Shown: positions 18,804 to 24,877 of the stretch, one piece after another
Layout: the number at the start of each line of letters is the position of its first letter
Position numbering within the stretch: position 1 is the stretch's first letter
Assembly: GCA_001899635.1 (NCBI GenBank)
Contig: MKVQ01000004.1
Coordinates: forward strand, 500,023-564,022
Reading direction: 5' to 3'
Length of the DNA: 64,000 bases
Source of the DNA: Myxococcales bacterium 68-20
GTDB lineage: Bacteria > Myxococcota_A > Polyangia > Polyangiales > Polyangiaceae
Position numbers and translations under genes: made by a program
Notes under the pieces: model-generated
The model's database searches: none
What the model was told of the DNA's origin: nothing
What the model saw: only the letters and a program-made list of their open reading frames with translations

Positions 18804-18878
18804 GGGAATCTCTCCCTTCTTCGGGCACGGCTCGGAGCGCTTCACCAATCACGTCCACCGCGCGAGACTAGGGATGTG

Positions 18879-19622
18879 ATGACGACCCATGGCCTCACAC
18901 TCGTCGGCGAAGGCTTCTCCCCGTGGACCGAAAAGGCTCGCTGGGCGCTCGACCATCATCGGATCCTCTATCGCTACGAGGAGTACACCCCGCTGCTCAG
19001 CGAGCCGTGGTTGCGGATCCGCGCCGGGCGCGGGAGCGGAACGATCAGCGTGCCGTACCTCCTCGGAGGAGACGGGCTCTCACTCGGAGACTCGTTCGCC
19101 ATCGCGCGGGAGGCCGACCGACGCGGCAACGGGTCTCTCGTGCCCGAGGACCAGATCGACGAGATCACGACCTGGAACGAGCGGAGCGAACGGCTCATGC
19201 GCGCGGGGCGGGCTCGGATCCTCGCGCAGACCGAAGAGAACAGAGAGCTCCAGATCGAGAGCCTGCCCTCACAGCTCCCGCAGGCGCTTCGCAGCATGCT
19301 CGCGCCGACGGTTCGGATCGGTACGGCCCACCTGCGAAAGAAGTACGCCGTCCGCCCGGTGCCCGACGAGGAGCTCGAGCCCGACCTCGCGGCGATTCGC
19401 GCCGCGATCGCCGGCGATCCATCGCGGCCGCTCCTCGGACGCTTCACGCTCGCGGACATCGCGATGGCGACGGCGCTGCAAGCCGTGCGTCCGCATCGGT
19501 CGGAGCCCGCGGGGCTCCTCCCCGCACAGCGAGAAGCCTGGGCACGCCCCGAGCTCGCCGCTCGATGGGAGGACGTCCTCGCGTGGCGCGACGCCATGAT
19601 CCGACACCGGTCGGAGGCGTAA
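18879..19622 (+). CDS. Glutathione S-transferase family protein
   Basis: 247 residues from ATG 18879 (GTG 18876 immediately before). The N-terminal thioredoxin-like domain begins LTLVGEGFSPWTEKARWALD, the expected position of the catalytic Ser/Cys/Tyr loop (Ser/Pro here), followed by the cis-Pro region (ISVPYLLGGDGLSLGDSFAI). The C-terminal half is all-alpha, with PLLGRFTLADIAMATALQAV close to the canonical GST C-terminal motif. It is 13 bases from the convergent ABC permease gene. Role: probably detoxifying conjugation; substrate unknown. Confidence 0.88.
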   Translation: MTTHGLTLVGEGFSPWTEKARWALDHHRILYRYEEYTPLLSEPWLRIRAGRGSGTISVPYLLGGDGLSLGDSFAIAREADRRGNGSLVPEDQIDEITTWNERSERLMRAGRARILAQTEENRELQIESLPSQLPQALRSMLAPTVRIGTAHLRKKYAVRPVPDEELEPDLAAIRAAIAGDPSRPLLGRFTLADIAMATALQAVRPHRSEPAGLLPAQREAWARPELAARWEDVLAWRDAMIRHRSEA

Positions 19623-19634
19623 GCGAGATTTTCC

Positions 19635-20321
19635 TCAGCGTGGACGGCGCGCCAGGCGCACGGCCAGCGCGAGGTACACCAGCATCAACACCACGAGCAT
19701 GATCGAGCTCACACGGCGCGAGAGCTCGAACGCCGTGGAGCCTCCGAGAAGGCTCATCAGGTGTCCGCGCGGCGTGAAGAGCGAGCCGAAGCCGCCCGGC
19801 GTCCCGATCAGGTAGTCGACCGCGAGGAACGCTCCGCGCATCGCGCCGCGACCGATCGCCGACCCCGCGCAGAAGTACGCCGCGTAGGCTGCGCCGCCGA
19901 CGAAAGCGACGCCGAACGACGCCGGGACATCCCAGACGAGCGGCGGATCCGAGGCGCCATGCGCGATGACGCACACGAGCCCCGCGAGGACGCCGCACAC
20001 GACGGCCGATGCCGCCATCGCGACGGCGATCGACGCGAGCGCGGCGCGCTGGGGCGACGCGCCGAGCGTGACGAGACCGCGCACGGCGGGTCGGAGACCG
20101 ACTCCTCCGAGCGTCGCACTGACGACGCCGTACGTGAGGAGCGGGACGATCACGACCCCGAACGTGCCGCGCAACACGTGATCCGCGCCGCTCGTGAGCC
20201 CCGTCGTGCGCGAAGAGAGCGCCGAGACGATCGCGAGCAGCGACCATCCCACGATCGGCAGCCATCCGCGCGGCGCGCGCAGGAGGCGCGCGAGCGGCAG
20301 CCGTAAGAGCGCCGTCATCAT
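19635..20321 (-). CDS. ABC-2-type permease (third gene of degenerate ABC operon)
   Basis: 228 residues from ATG 20321, whose ATGA overlaps the stop of the upstream ATPase-like gene. Five to six predicted membrane helices (for example GWLPIVGWSLLAIVSALS and SSIMLVVLMLVYLALAVRLA at the C-terminus), with no cytoplasmic domain. The fold and gene order suit the membrane subunit of an ABC-2 exporter such as GldF/CcmB-type proteins. With the other permease (21433-22272) it would make a heterodimeric channel. The partner ATPase lacks catalytic residues, so transport by this trio alone is doubtful. A 13-base gap separates it from the convergent GST gene. Confidence 0.78.
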   Translation of the reverse strand: MMTALLRLPLARLLRAPRGWLPIVGWSLLAIVSALSSRTTGLTSGADHVLRGTFGVVIVPLLTYGVVSATLGGVGLRPAVRGLVTLGASPQRAALASIAVAMAASAVVCGVLAGLVCVIAHGASDPPLVWDVPASFGVAFVGGAAYAAYFCAGSAIGRGAMRGAFLAVDYLIGTPGGFGSLFTPRGHLMSLLGGSTAFELSRRVSSIMLVVLMLVYLALAVRLARRPR

Positions 20322-21436
20322 CGCGCGCCTCCCGAAGGCGGCATCGACCCTGGCGGCACTGAACCGGGAGGCAGCGACGCGGGCGGCATCGAGCCCGGCA
20401 ACGGGGGGATGCCCGCCGGCGGGAGCACTCCGGGCAGCGCGCTCGGCGGGAGCGACGCGGGCCCCGGCGGGAGCGAGCCCGGCGGGGGCGACATCGCACG
20501 CGCCGCGAGCGCTGCGCGGATCGCGTCGAGCGAGAGCGTGCTCGCCTCGACGAGCTCCACGTCGACGCGTGCAGTCGCGATCGCGTGCGTGACCGCCCGC
20601 GAGAGACGCGCCAGATCGCGGCCGGAGACGACGACGGAGACCGCCTCCGACGGCGCCGCGTAGGTCGCGGTCTCGACGCGCGCGACCGCGTCGTCGCCGC
20701 CGAGGATGCCCGCGAGCGCCGCCGCCCCGCTCTTGCCGTGAGTCGGCGCGACCACCACGCGGATCGATGCGCCGCCCTCGGGCCCGAGGCTCATGTGCGC
20801 GAGCTCCGGCGGGAGCTGCGAGTAGATCCCCGACGTCAGGACGCCGAGCCGATCCGCGAGGCGCGTCGCATCGCGAGGCGAAGCGGTCGTGACGATCACA
20901 CACGCCGACGCAGCACGCGCGCGCAGTGCGTCGACGACGAGGCGCGGCGCAACCGGATCGAGCAGGGCGAGCGGCTCCTCGATCAAGAGCACCTCGGCCT
21001 TCGAACCGACGGCGATCGCGAGCGCTACGGCCCGCCGCTCCTCGAGCGCGAGCGACCGGACGCGACGACGTGCGAGCGCTCCGATCCCGAGCGCGCCGAG
21101 GATCTCCTCTGCCGAGCGTCGCGGCTCTCCGCGAAGGTCGGCGGCGAGATCGCAGACCTCGTCGACACGAAGCGCGTCGGGGAGCGGAGCTTCGAGAGAG
21201 ACACGTGCGAGCCGGGCCCGCACGGCATCGGGGCTGCCACCGAGGACGACGACGCGACCGGACGCCGGCGGCGCCGTCCCGTCGATCAGGTCGAGGAGCA
21301 GCGAGGTCCCGTCTTTCGGCGCACCGACGATCCCGAGGACGCCGGCGCGCTGCTCGAGGCTCACCTTCGTGAGCACCACGCGCGGTCGCCCGCGCTCCGC
21401 CGGGCCGCGAGCCGAAACGCCGGCGAGCTCGATCAT
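20318..21436 (-). CDS. ABC-transporter nucleotide-binding-domain homologue with all catalytic motifs degenerate
   Basis: 372 residues, ATG 21436, overlapping both neighbours by 4 bases. The ABC fold is recognisable from VLTKVSLEQRAGVLGIVG to ADRLGVLTSG. Walker A reads GAPKDGTS (38-45): Thr44 replaces the essential Lys of GKS. The Q-loop Gln is replaced (VSLEAPLPDAL). The signature LSGGQ reads LALEE (129-133). Walker B reads LLIEE (150-154), with Glu for Asp. The H-loop His is Ala (VTTASPRDA). The final 60 residues are a Pro/Gly/Ser repeat (PPGSVPPGSMPPSGG at the end). It probably binds partners without hydrolysing ATP, or it borrows a second ATPase. Operon: permease, this protein, permease. 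Confidence 0.85.
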   Translation of the reverse strand: MIELAGVSARGPAERGRPRVVLTKVSLEQRAGVLGIVGAPKDGTSLLLDLIDGTAPPASGRVVVLGGSPDAVRARLARVSLEAPLPDALRVDEVCDLAADLRGEPRRSAEEILGALGIGALARRRVRSLALEERRAVALAIAVGSKAEVLLIEEPLALLDPVAPRLVVDALRARAASACVIVTTASPRDATRLADRLGVLTSGIYSQLPPELAHMSLGPEGGASIRVVVAPTHGKSGAAALAGILGGDDAVARVETATYAAPSEAVSVVVSGRDLARLSRAVTHAIATARVDVELVEASTLSLDAIRAALAARAMSPPPGSLPPGPASLPPSALPGVLPPAGIPPLPGSMPPASLPPGSVPPGSMPPSGGAR

Positions 21437-22272
21437 ACGTCCTCCCGCTCGACGGCGGCGGCGTCACGCCGGACGAGCGCCAGCGCGATCCCCGTGAAGA
21501 TTGCGAGCGCCACGAACGCGCGGAGGAACCGGACCGGCTCGACCGATCCCGGCGCGAGCGACGAGCGAAGCGCAGCGAGCGCCGACGGGATGGCAAAGAG
21601 CTCGGTCACCTCGCTCGGGAGCGCTCCGGCGAGCGTGCTCGCGACGAGCTCCGGGACGACGAGGAAGAGGAGGAGCACGAGGTAGCCCGACATCCGCGTG
21701 CGCGCTCCGAGCGCCGCGAACGCGACCGGCGCCATCACCACGGCGAACGCGAGCGCGAACACGAGCGCGCCGAGCGTCGTGTGGACCGTGCGCAGCACCG
21801 CCTGCGTCTGCGTGGCGGCGACGATCGCGAGCGCGGAGACGAGCAGCGTGCCGCCCCCGACGACGACGGCGAGGACCGCGGCGAGACCGCCGACACGTGC
21901 GACGAGATAGCCCCGAAGCGACGTCGTCCGCATCACGAAGAGATGACGGATCCCCTCGACGCGATCGCGCCGTAGCGCGCCCATCGCGACGACGACGGCC
22001 TGCAAGAAGCCGCCTCCCCACGCGATCGCGCTCGAGGCGAGCACCGGCACGCTCGCCACCGGAGCGTCGCCCCCACGACGCGCGAACGCGAGCGCGAGGA
22101 TGGCGAGCACGAGGGCAGTGAGCGCCGATACCACCATCGATACCGTCGTGAGGACGCCACGTCGGGCGAGCGTCGCTCCGAGCGCGAGCAGCGCGGCGAG
22201 CCCGGTGTGAGCGCGCGCGTTCATCGACGCCGGCGCGGAGACTCCGTCGGGGCTCGCCGTGGACGCTGCCAT
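21433..22272 (-). CDS. ABC-2-type permease (first gene of degenerate ABC operon)
   Basis: 279 residues from ATG 22272; an in-frame ATG at 22290 and one at 22224 are alternatives. Six predicted membrane helices (including LTTVSMVVSALTALVLAILA, LAAVLAVVVGGGTLLVSALA and SGYLVLLLFLVVPELVAS) with Arg-rich cytoplasmic loops. The arrangement is typical of ABC-2 export permeases. The stop overlaps the start of the ATPase-like gene (ATGA). A divergent promoter region separates it from the pseudo-NtrC membrane protein. Confidence 0.78.
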   Translation of the reverse strand: MAASTASPDGVSAPASMNARAHTGLAALLALGATLARRGVLTTVSMVVSALTALVLAILALAFARRGGDAPVASVPVLASSAIAWGGGFLQAVVVAMGALRRDRVEGIRHLFVMRTTSLRGYLVARVGGLAAVLAVVVGGGTLLVSALAIVAATQTQAVLRTVHTTLGALVFALAFAVVMAPVAFAALGARTRMSGYLVLLLFLVVPELVASTLAGALPSEVTELFAIPSALAALRSSLAPGSVEPVRFLRAFVALAIFTGIALALVRRDAAAVEREDV

Positions 22273-22519
22273 TAGCCTCGAAAAGACCACAGCTTTGCGC
22301 CGTCCGAAAGGAGAGAGTCCACCGAGGACGCGGGCGCGACACCGGCGACACGGGCGAGACGGCGACAGCTGAGGAGAAGGCGCGGCCGCAGTCTAGTCCG
22401 GCTTCAATCTTGACGGCTCCACGGACGCAGGCCGCTCCAGTCAGGGGTGGCATGCCCGAGCTTGCCACGCGGCATGCTATAGGGCCGCTGCTCGCGCTAG
22501 GCTCGAGCGCCCGCGTTCG
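22273..22519. promoter_or_regulatory. Divergent promoter region with a 6-bp inverted repeat
   Basis: 247 bases between the ABC operon and the plus-strand pseudo-NtrC gene. It contains GTGGCA (22447-22452), 10-base spacer, TGCCAC (22463-22468), a plausible operator. Two GGCATGC copies flank it. No sigma-54 site with correct spacing is present. Confidence 0.45.
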
Positions 22520-24877
22520 ATGCTTTCCCGACGACGCCTCCCGCTCCTCGTCGCGTTTCCCGCGCTCTACGTCGGCGTGGCCGCGGTCCGCGCGGGCGAA
22601 GCGCGACCGTCGGCGTGGCTGCTCGTCGCGATCGCCGTCGTGATCGCGCTCATCGGAGGGCGGATCGACGAAGGCACGGAGCCCGTCGCAGCGCGCCTGA
22701 GGCTCTGGACCGCCACCGGCCTGTCCGTCGCCGTCGCGACGGCAGCCCTCTCGACGCGTCCCTTCTGGGCGGCGTTCGCGCGCGAGCTCGGCACGCTCGT
22801 GGCCATGCTCGCTGCGCTCCGCGCGATCCAGCGGATCGACGCTGAGGTCGGGCTCGCCGCCAAGGCCACGGAGGCGGCCTCGCAGCCCGGCTTCAGCCCG
22901 CGGGCGCTCTACCGCGCGGGGGTCGCCGCCGTCACGCTCGCGTGGGGCGCGCCGGCGTTGTTCGACGGGCTCGCGCTCTTCGGCGTGATCGGTGAAGCCA
23001 CCGCGTCGTCGGGCGCCCCGGTCGTCGCGGCCGGCTGCGGCGCGGTCGCGCTCTTCGCGCTCGGCGCAACCGCGCTCCTGATCGGCGGCGCCAGGCGTCT
23101 CGAGCTCGCTGTTCCACCACGAGCGCTGGCGTGTGCGGGCGCTGCCGGAGCGGGGCTCACGATCGGCGTCACGCTCGCGCTCACGAGCGTCGTGCCCGCG
23201 GACGCCGCCGCCGCGCTCGGGGGAGCGATCGCCTCGGCCCTAATCGTTCGTCTCGCAGGCACGCGCGATGCGCTCGGCCTCGCGCGCCGTGGCCGCCGCG
23301 CGCTCACCCTCGTCCTCTTCGGCGGCCCGGTCGCCGCGCTCGCAGCCATCGCGGTCGAGAGCAGGGCGTACGGCGGCAGCGGCGTCGCCCTCACGCTCGC
23401 AGCCGTAGCGCTGCTCGTCGGCGCGATCTCGCAGAAGCTCGAGGAGCCGCTGTTGCCCGTGAAGGGGATCCTCCTCGATGCCCTCGCCGAAGCGCGCAAC
23501 GCCGCTGGCGAGCGCGAGGCGCGCACCGCCATGGCCCACGCGCTCGTGCGCATCCGCGAGGCCTCCGCGGTGGGCCTCGGCCCGACCGCCTCGCCTTCGC
23601 CCGAGCTCTGGCTATTGCATCCTACACGCGTCATCACGGTCGATGCCGCCGGCTACCTCCAGGAGCGGGTCACCGCTCTTCCTGACGGGATCTTCGACGT
23701 GGCGCTCGGAGAGCCGGACGGCACGCTGCGCACCTCCGTGCTCCGCGCCCTCGAGGTACGGCGCGCGGACCTTCGGCCGATCCTCTCGTGGCTGGAGCAG
23801 CGCGACGCGCTCTTCGCGACGGTGATCGCCGATTCCGAGGATCCCGATGGCCTCCTCATCGTCCCCGCCGGCACGCGGACCGAGGAGCTCACCCTCGAGG
23901 AGGTCCGCGCCGCGAAGCTCCTGGCAGACGCATTCGTCGCCGTCTCGCAGGCCACGAGCGCGAGGGAGCGTCACCGCGAGCGCGAACGCGAGCTGCAGCA
24001 TCGCATCGATACGCTCGACGACGAGGCCGCGCGCCTCCGTCACACGATCGAGCTCGAGGCTGGCCGCCACGCGCTCGCCGCGACGCGCCTCGCCCGCCCC
24101 GCGACGGTGGGGATCTACTCCGCGGCGGCCCGCATGGCCTACGACGCGCTCGAGCGGCGCGTGTCGCATGAGGCTCCGACCATGCTCGTCGCCCGGGCCG
24201 GGATCGATCCGGTGCCCTACGTCGCGCGCGCGCACCTGTCGGGGACACGCAAGAGCGGGCCGCTCGTCGTCGTCGACGGCACTGCCTCGCGCGAGCACGA
24301 CGTCGATCGATGGAACGACGAAGAGACGAGCCCGCTCGCGCTCGCCGATCGTGGCCTCCTCTTCCTCGTCGACGGCGCAGCGCTCCCGCGCGAGGTCCAG
24401 GTCCTCGTCGCGCGCACGATCACCCAGCGCCGCGCTCCGTGGGAGCGCGCCTCACCGCTCGACATCGCGGTGGCGTTGAGCGCGACGAAGACCCTCGAAG
24501 AGCTGATCGAGTCCGGCCTCCTCGCGCCCGAGCTCGCGGCGCGCTTCGACGGCGGCGAGCCGATCATCCTTCCAAGGCTGCGCGATCGCGCCGAAGACCT
24601 CCACTCCATCGTCGCCGACCGCCTCGCCCGCGAAGGCCTCCGCGTCCACGGACGACCGATCGGGATCGACCACGCCGCCTTCAGCCGTCTCGTCGAGTAC
24701 CCGTTCGACGGCGAGGACGCGGAGGTCGCGTCGATCGTCACGCGGCTCGTCGCGCGCGCCCAGGGTGACGTCATCCGTGCCGCCGACGTCGACGCGCTCG
24801 GCCTTCTCCACGTCGACGAAGCCGAGCCGCCGAAGTGGCCCGAAGGCGCACGCGCCGCGAACCGGAATGACGGCTGA
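22520..24877 (+). CDS. Polytopic membrane protein ending in a degenerate sigma-54-activator (NtrC-type) AAA+ domain
   Basis: 785 residues, ATG 22520. About ten hydrophobic helices fill residues 1-315. A GAF-like stretch follows, then a coiled coil (about 475-522, RERERELQHRIDTLDDEAAR). From about 540 the sequence tracks a bacterial enhancer-binding-protein AAA+ domain: MAYDALERRVSHEAPTMLV, VARAHLSGTRKSGPLVVVDG, SPLALADRGLLFLVDGAALP, ELIESGLLAPELAARFD, LPRLRDRAEDLHSIV and VEYPFDGEDAEVASIV. The Walker A stretch is destroyed (ARAGIDPV; Val565 at the Lys position), the GAFTGA segment is deleted, Walker B DE has become Val617-Asp618 and there is no C-terminal helix-turn-helix. It cannot be a normal sigma-54 activator; a membrane-bound regulatory pseudo-AAA is more likely. 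Divergent from the degenerate ABC operon. Confidence 0.85.
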   Translation: MLSRRRLPLLVAFPALYVGVAAVRAGEARPSAWLLVAIAVVIALIGGRIDEGTEPVAARLRLWTATGLSVAVATAALSTRPFWAAFARELGTLVAMLAALRAIQRIDAEVGLAAKATEAASQPGFSPRALYRAGVAAVTLAWGAPALFDGLALFGVIGEATASSGAPVVAAGCGAVALFALGATALLIGGARRLELAVPPRALACAGAAGAGLTIGVTLALTSVVPADAAAALGGAIASALIVRLAGTRDALGLARRGRRALTLVLFGGPVAALAAIAVESRAYGGSGVALTLAAVALLVGAISQKLEEPLLPVKGILLDALAEARNAAGEREARTAMAHALVRIREASAVGLGPTASPSPELWLLHPTRVITVDAAGYLQERVTALPDGIFDVALGEPDGTLRTSVLRALEVRRADLRPILSWLEQRDALFATVIADSEDPDGLLIVPAGTRTEELTLEEVRAAKLLADAFVAVSQATSARERHRERERELQHRIDTLDDEAARLRHTIELEAGRHALAATRLARPATVGIYSAAARMAYDALERRVSHEAPTMLVARAGIDPVPYVARAHLSGTRKSGPLVVVDGTASREHDVDRWNDEETSPLALADRGLLFLVDGAALPREVQVLVARTITQRRAPWERASPLDIAVALSATKTLEELIESGLLAPELAARFDGGEPIILPRLRDRAEDLHSIVADRLAREGLRVHGRPIGIDHAAFSRLVEYPFDGEDAEVASIVTRLVARAQGDVIRAADVDALGLLHVDEAEPPKWPEGARAANRNDG

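Follow-up and report, generated by a model that had tools for sequence, protein, structure and literature searches.

Here, we describe a gene at 22520-24877 on the forward strand of the window, by which we mean the whole stretch of 64,000 nucleotides that was analysed; it is part of an 11.9 Mb genome in 52 contigs (G000:C4). The gene reads from ATG to stop in one frame and encodes 785 residues. The features referred to below are as follows.

22520-24877, forward strand: whole gene, 785 amino acids plus stop, a single open frame with full-length orthologues
22538-23425, forward strand: predicted membrane domain of ten helices (residues 7-302), from AF2 models and loop charges
23567-23893, forward strand: GAF-fold domain (residues about 350-458), VIA-align Z 10-11 to GAF chains
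23894-24109, forward strand: 72-residue helix joining GAF to AAA+ (residues 459-530), from AF2 secondary structure
24122-24805, forward strand: pseudo-AAA+ domain of NtrC type (residues 535-762), from sequence and structure matches and the motif alignment
24191-24214, forward strand: ruined Walker A loop ARAGIDPV (residues 558-565; Lys column Pro564), from phmmer and MAFFT
24293-24331, forward strand: site of the missing GAFTGA loop segment (residues about 592-604), from the 86-member alignment
24356-24373, forward strand: ruined Walker B LLFLVD (Asp column Val617, Glu column Asp618), from the 86-member alignment
24578-24805, forward strand: AAA+ lid with the best-kept motifs LRxRxED and GxxxEL, from Pfam AAA_lid_14 in relatives and alignment columns
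24806-24874, forward strand: short loose tail where relatives carry a helix-turn-helix (HTH) domain; block pLDDT 41-56, no HTH
21433-22290, reverse strand: putative ABC-type membrane subunit, divergent and conserved neighbour, weak matches to ABC2_membrane_5 (E 7.8) and PmtD (E 0.026)
20318-21436, reverse strand: degenerate ABC ATPase, divergent neighbour, Pfam ABC_tran 6.5e-9, Walker A GAPKDGTS with Thr in the Lys column
19635-20318, reverse strand: putative second membrane subunit, divergent neighbour, with the cassette in 10 loci, no Pfam match

A sigma-54-type site near the gene start (22463-22478, two mismatches) was discarded: the window holds 20 such matches where 13 are expected, and 3 of 100 shuffles reach 20. 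An ordinary glutathione S-transferase-like gene lies at 18876-19622 on the forward strand.

The C-terminal part of the protein resembles the AAA+ domain of NtrC-type enhancer-binding proteins (EBPs). By sequence, phmmer aligns it with an NtrC-type chain at E 1.7e-8, and the NCBIfam matches, led by DhaR (6.9e-13) and including NtrC (1.5e-7), all lie far below the curated cut-offs; Pfam reports a sub-threshold AAA_lid_14 only and gives no match to Sigma54_activat. By structure, Foldseek assigns the NtrC-type AAA+ fold at E 4e-11, and VIA-align places residues 526-763 on FlrC with Z 23.2 and an rmsd of 2.2 A over 232 residues. The underlying AF2 model of the 785-residue protein, built from a 44-row alignment, has a mean pLDDT of 90.1 and a pTM of 0.68, so that the mutual placing of its domains is unsure. 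Taken together, the similarity is far above chance and supports the descent of the protein from a sigma-54 activator. The original prediction had read an NtrC-type AAA+ region at about residues 540-770 and proposed an HMM search and a structure prediction as checks, and both are in good agreement with it. Of the 24 matches in its own genome, the window protein is the sole full-length one; the remaining 23 cover only the coil and the AAA+ part, and the seven of them that were opened are ordinary EBPs. The genome carries 79 Sigma54_activat matches at E <= 0.001, the window protein not among them, of which 68 reach E <= 1e-27. Weak matches to this model mean little, since it also matches in 14 of 14 control genomes.

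The catalytic motifs were compared in a MAFFT alignment that sets 86 family members, each from a different genome, beside seven EBPs of the own genome as a control. These members were the ones retrieved near full length and constitute neither a random sample nor all 166 carriers; a duplicate gene (L045, identical to L022) and a repeat (L161, identical to L125) were dropped before counting. The Walker A lysine is found in none of the 86 members versus all seven controls. Its loss, claimed in the original prediction, stands, while the residue named there does not: phmmer and MAFFT both put Pro564 in the Lys column and Val565 in the next one. The Walker B aspartate is likewise absent from all 86 members and present in 7/7 controls, each of which reads Asp-Glu. 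The window protein has Val617-Asp618, exactly the VD in place of DE that had been noted before, and 72 of the 86 members carry Asp at the catalytic Glu column. GAFTGA, also claimed to be missing, is absent from the window protein and from the entire family (0/86); all seven controls have the loop (five GAFTGA, two GAFTDA by column). In the columns which we take, from PspF and NtrC1, to be those of the arginine fingers, the first Arg occurs in 0/86 members versus 7/7 controls and the second in 48/86 versus 7/7. The lid motif LRxRxED, by contrast, keeps its Arg in 85 and its Asp in all 86 members.

Not one of the 86 members has an intact Walker A or GAFTGA. A frameshift or assembly error, which the original prediction named as a possible source of the missing motifs, is thereby ruled out, because the losses are common to 86/86 members from 86 genomes. 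With the catalytic residues and GAFTGA gone, the protein should not activate sigma-54 promoters in the normal way, as was stated before. The Asp at the Walker B Glu column and the nearly fixed lid columns count against simple decay. Since Asp occupies that column in 72/86 members and the second finger retains Arg in 48/86, nucleotide may still be bound by another route.

The N-terminal half has the architecture of a receptor. In the AF2 model, ten long hydrophobic helices are followed by a GAF-like alpha/beta domain, the 72-residue helix, the AAA+ domain and the loose tail. About ten membrane helices had been claimed and ten are predicted, the first at residues 7-24 and the last at 286-302. 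The inner loops are the longer ones and hold about twice the Lys+Arg of the outer loops (10.4 vs 5.0, summed means of 50 orthologues), so that the pattern fits a cytoplasmic C-terminus. Residues about 315-485 of the N-terminal model superimpose on GAF chains at Z 10-11 (VIA-align), mostly with 3.4-4.7 A over 131-159 residues; the GAF domain of NifA (8jrc) scores Z 10.2. Foldseek returns nothing at E <= 0.001 for this model, its best rows being GAF or phytochrome chains, and Pfam GAF does not match the window protein by sequence. It does match five of 18 scanned members of the set A2 and one of the 44 scanned members of A1, which represents the window's family f1. By its fold, the protein is thus a predicted GAF-domain sensor. 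The earlier idea of a receptor with an N-terminal membrane domain is strengthened by the order of ten helices, GAF and connecting helix, of which the GAF fold had been overlooked. A reading of transmembrane helices 1-7 as a rhodopsin, GPCR or designed GPCR-like fold was set aside, as its Z of 10-11, tied with the GAF rows, lies below the caution level for helical bundles. A histidine kinase domain is absent from the Pfam and NCBIfam results for the window protein.

The same layout is widespread. With the whole protein as query, 98 of 108 genomes of the taxonomic family match at E <= 1e-15. The N-terminal part (membrane helices plus GAF) was also used alone, because ordinary EBPs should then not match. 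At E <= 1e-5, this module is found in 166 of the 183 genomes searched within the order, and none of the 134 from the rest of the class matches, which answers the survey for homologues of the membrane domain suggested in the original prediction. Among the carriers are Sorangium cellulosum (So ce26 and So0157-2), Minicystis rosea and Polyangium fumosum. A one-off degenerate paralogue is ruled out by the full-length orthologues and by this spread. In a sample of 377 genomes from the phylum, the threshold of E <= 0.001 is reached by 11 that lie outside the order, always with weak, partial matches (best 2.8e-5). Six of these were opened: five carry a histidine-kinase motif, three of them confirmed by NCBIfam and two by the H-box motif only, and the sixth (L189) is a short uninformative frame. 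The five (L181, 406-2799 on the reverse strand, L182, L184, L186 and L187) look like membrane GAF histidine kinases, and they weakly resemble the receptor in its GAF end and helix. An exchange of output domains between proteins with a shared sensor layout may lie behind this.

Selection was estimated as dN/dS by the Nei-Gojobori method for three orthologue pairs only. Versus the nearest orthologue, all parts lie between 0.12 and 0.26 (membrane helices 0.26, GAF 0.12, helix 0.13, AAA+ 0.20, tail 0.18). The two more distant orthologues give 0.39 and 0.32 for the AAA+ part, 0.58 and 0.59 for the membrane helices, and 0.34 and 0.72 for the tail, whose sequence is conserved least of all (39-78% identical to the three orthologues). 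In these three pairs the AAA+ part is maintained better than the membrane part, and values of 0.20-0.39 indicate that it is kept under purifying selection in spite of its predicted inactivity. This is evidence of a function, not of any docking or scaffold function in particular. A decaying gene without function would account for the lost catalytic motifs, the later loss of the HTH and the higher values of the distant pairs; we give it hardly any chance, given the low ratios in every part versus the nearest orthologue and the long open frames across the order.

What became of the DNA-binding end is recorded in the relatives. A Fis-type HTH profile, built from 17 of the 23 HTH-bearing members, matches 23 of the 86 members at E <= 1e-12, the next best at 0.014. 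None of the 52 members of f1 and neither of the two in f5 carries the domain, versus 23 of the 32 elsewhere. The nine without it among these 32 are seven members of f3, L164 and L159, the last being cut by a contig end, so that its missing HTH is no loss. The window protein scores E 1.2, in line with the earlier claim that it has no C-terminal DNA-binding domain. Pfam follows the same gradient at E <= 0.01: the A2 relatives match Sigma54_activat in 18/18 and HTH_8 in 17/18 cases, and the 44 scanned f1 members match Sigma54_activat in 3, Sigma54_activ_2 in 13 and AAA_lid_14 in 37 cases. An annotation by similarity alone could therefore call the HTH-bearing relatives sigma-54 activators, because 18 of 18 match that model. 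In a tree from a quick search with several long branches, f1 and f5 are split from the rest at SH-aLRT 100. The HTH labels in this tree were assigned by a motif that gave three false positives (L063, L167, L168); the counts above use the profile.

Compared with the original prediction, it is new that 23 of the 86 relatives bear a Fis-type HTH and that the losses are common to all 86 examined members of an order-wide family. EBPs commonly end in such an HTH, and for this reason the simplest history is an early loss of the ATPase and of the sigma-54 contact, followed by loss of the HTH two or three times. The order of events is inferred, as the tree is rooted at its midpoint only. The ancestor was probably a membrane-tethered, ATPase-dead EBP derivative with a DNA-binding end, since all 23 HTH-bearing members, which belong to other families, still have that end. 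A membrane-tethered DNA-binding regulator, and not an anti-activator, is the probable starting point of the family; the window's family has lost the HTH (0/52). No sign was found of an HTH split off as a gene of its own: with the HTH of one relative as query, the own genome yields 22 matches at E <= 0.01, all in frames of at least 351 aa. The receptor might instead still touch DNA through an Arg-rich tail in the position of the HTH. The last 15 residues have a net charge of at least +3 in 28 of the 49 f1 members scored, three of the 52 being left out through a false HTH label. The charges range from -3 to +9, however, and in the window protein the end of this least conserved part is almost neutral, which makes such a contact highly improbable.

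We favour, with a probability of about one half, a membrane/GAF receptor whose nucleotide-free AAA+ scaffold passes the signal on by contact with a protein. The ten-helix membrane domain and the GAF domain would sense a signal, the 72-residue helix would relay the change to the AAA+ domain, and the latter would offer a face for docking or assembly instead of working as a motor. The HTH-bearing relatives would be membrane-tethered one-component DNA-binding regulators working without ATP or sigma-54. Action of these relatives on sigma-70 promoters is plausible, because some EBPs without GAFTGA act there. In the HTH-less family of the window, the same AAA+ face would bind another protein, with a soluble regulator as the likeliest candidate; a protein partner would be the simplest output for the window protein. 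From intact EBPs through membrane-tethered, ATPase-dead relatives with an HTH to members without one, these proteins form a natural series along which a transcription motor has seemingly turned into a receptor. On this series, the role left to an AAA+ fold without ATP hydrolysis or contact to sigma-54 can be tested.

The docking face might, on the other hand, serve an anti-activator, as the original prediction had also considered: the dead AAA+ domain would join the rings of genuine EBPs, poison or sequester them at the membrane, and release them upon a signal. FleN, PspA and HrpV are anti-activators of EBPs. Proteins that bind the AAA+ domain of EBPs are known, and FleN-FleQ complexes are among the structural matches. 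The fold is that of EBP protomers, as the FlrC superposition indicates, the 68 strong Sigma54_activat matches of the own genome are possible partners, and no other output domain is seen in the window protein. However, the first arginine finger is lost in 86/86 members and the second column has Arg in only 48/86, the HTH-bearing relatives point to an origin as DNA-binding regulators, and no EBP appears among the Pfam-scanned representatives of recurring neighbours, several neighbour groups of which are without a Pfam match. We consider this reading possible, albeit unlikely. A catalytic role in a mixed ring, with a finger donated to an active neighbour, is less likely because the first finger is lost (0/86, in the columns taken from PspF and NtrC1).

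An operon partner common to the whole family was not found; the neighbours vary by clade and include PhoH, MATCAP, a Ser/Thr kinase and SmpB among the scanned representatives. One other clade (L053-L055, L058, L067-L072, L076, L077) has a PhoH-PIN gene in 10 loci, a MATCAP-like peptidase in nine at most, and a 1,300-residue Ser/Thr kinase-AAA_16 protein nearby in 12, each name resting on one representative scanned with Pfam. Nine loci (L044, L045, L046, L053, L054, L063, L065, L072, L073) share a gene pair (c6-c9) in the vicinity of the receptor gene; one member of c9 matches fvmX7 (E 2.5e-11) and another weakly bpX2, both domains of ternary systems.

In the window's subclade, the three-gene ABC-like cassette adjoins the receptor gene in 9 of 13 loci and is three genes away in one more; clustering did not place it beside the gene in any of the 28 other f1 loci. 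These counts depend on our own gene caller, which called no ATPase in L040, a locus that has both membrane genes. At E <= 1e-20, 11 of the 12 genus genomes contain a homologue of the cassette ATPase, compared with a single one of 17 others. In 10 of the 11 genus genomes it is located on the same contig as the receptor gene, within 7 kb, and in G064 on another contig. All nine aligned cassette ATPases are without the Walker A Lys and LSGGQ, and seven have Glu for the Walker B Asp. The copy in the window (20318-21436) combines GAPKDGTS at Walker A with a missing LSGGQ and this Glu. In the window's genus, two predicted pseudo-ATPases thus face each other. It is conceivable that receptor and cassette form an envelope complex that jointly senses a compound, in good agreement with their adjacency, with the near confinement of the ATPase homologue to the genus and with its degeneracy. 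We regard this as very doubtful: adjacency may mean co-regulation only, and the complex cannot explain the whole family because the cassette was not seen at the 28 other f1 loci. A wider scenario is rather unlikely as well. Here, two dead motors, the AAA+ receptor and the ABC assembly, both nucleotide-free, would make up one envelope sensor in the genus, while across the order a sigma-54 activator would have become a pure membrane signalling scaffold stepwise, losing the ATPase and sigma-54 contact first and DNA binding next.

The NtrC-type EBPs are among the closest known systems. In NifA-like activators, a GAF domain stands ahead of AAA+, as in the receptor. FlrC, FleQ, NtrC1, NifA and DmpR have the same AAA+ fold, lid included (Z about 20-23), and the Fis-type HTH recurs in 23 of the 86 relatives. 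Unlike these EBPs, the family has no Walker A Lys, Walker B Asp, first Arg finger or GAFTGA, possesses ten membrane helices and, in the window's branch, is devoid of the HTH. The window protein is thus derived from EBPs by its fold and stands outside the EBP family by the other features tested, namely Walker A and B, GAFTGA, Pfam Sigma54_activat and HTH.

TyrR, DhaR, HupR, NtrC of R. capsulatus and Caulobacter, and VpsR are soluble DNA-binding proteins, unlike the membrane receptor. DhaR, itself without GAFTGA, is the best NCBIfam match of the window protein. In the accessible parts of PMC3162934 and PMC10274813, these EBPs (VpsR probably) are tied to sigma-70 promoters and have, like our family, lost GAFTGA and kept the AAA+ fold. 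The former lists TyrR, DhaR and HupR as sigma-70 dependent; according to the latter, some bEBPs without GAFTGA regulate sigma-70 promoters without ATP hydrolysis, and Caulobacter NtrC relies in part on binding and hydrolysing ATP for its regulation. Full-text searches of open-access papers, subscription journals being outside this scope, turned up none that mentions a membrane-embedded ATPase-dead EBP family in its title or the start of its abstract, and none is described in the accessible parts of PMC4641369, PMC3162934 and PMC10269533.

PrsK-like membrane GAF histidine kinases offer a second comparison. Several transmembrane helices lead to a GAF domain and a helix there as well, as in five of the six opened matches outside the order; unlike in the receptor, the output is a histidine kinase, and what weak similarity there is lies mostly in the GAF end and helix. 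The third comparison is with transmembrane transcription regulators such as ToxR, TcpP, CadC and TfoS. In the searched part of PMC10269533, the term GAF is absent and AAA+ appears a single time, among the references. The window protein shares the membrane helices with this class and is without the DNA-binding domain. Its HTH-bearing relatives would act like these regulators, as one-component systems from the membrane; unlike in ToxR, TcpP, CadC and TfoS, their HTH is C-terminal, behind ten helices, a GAF domain and a dead AAA+ domain.
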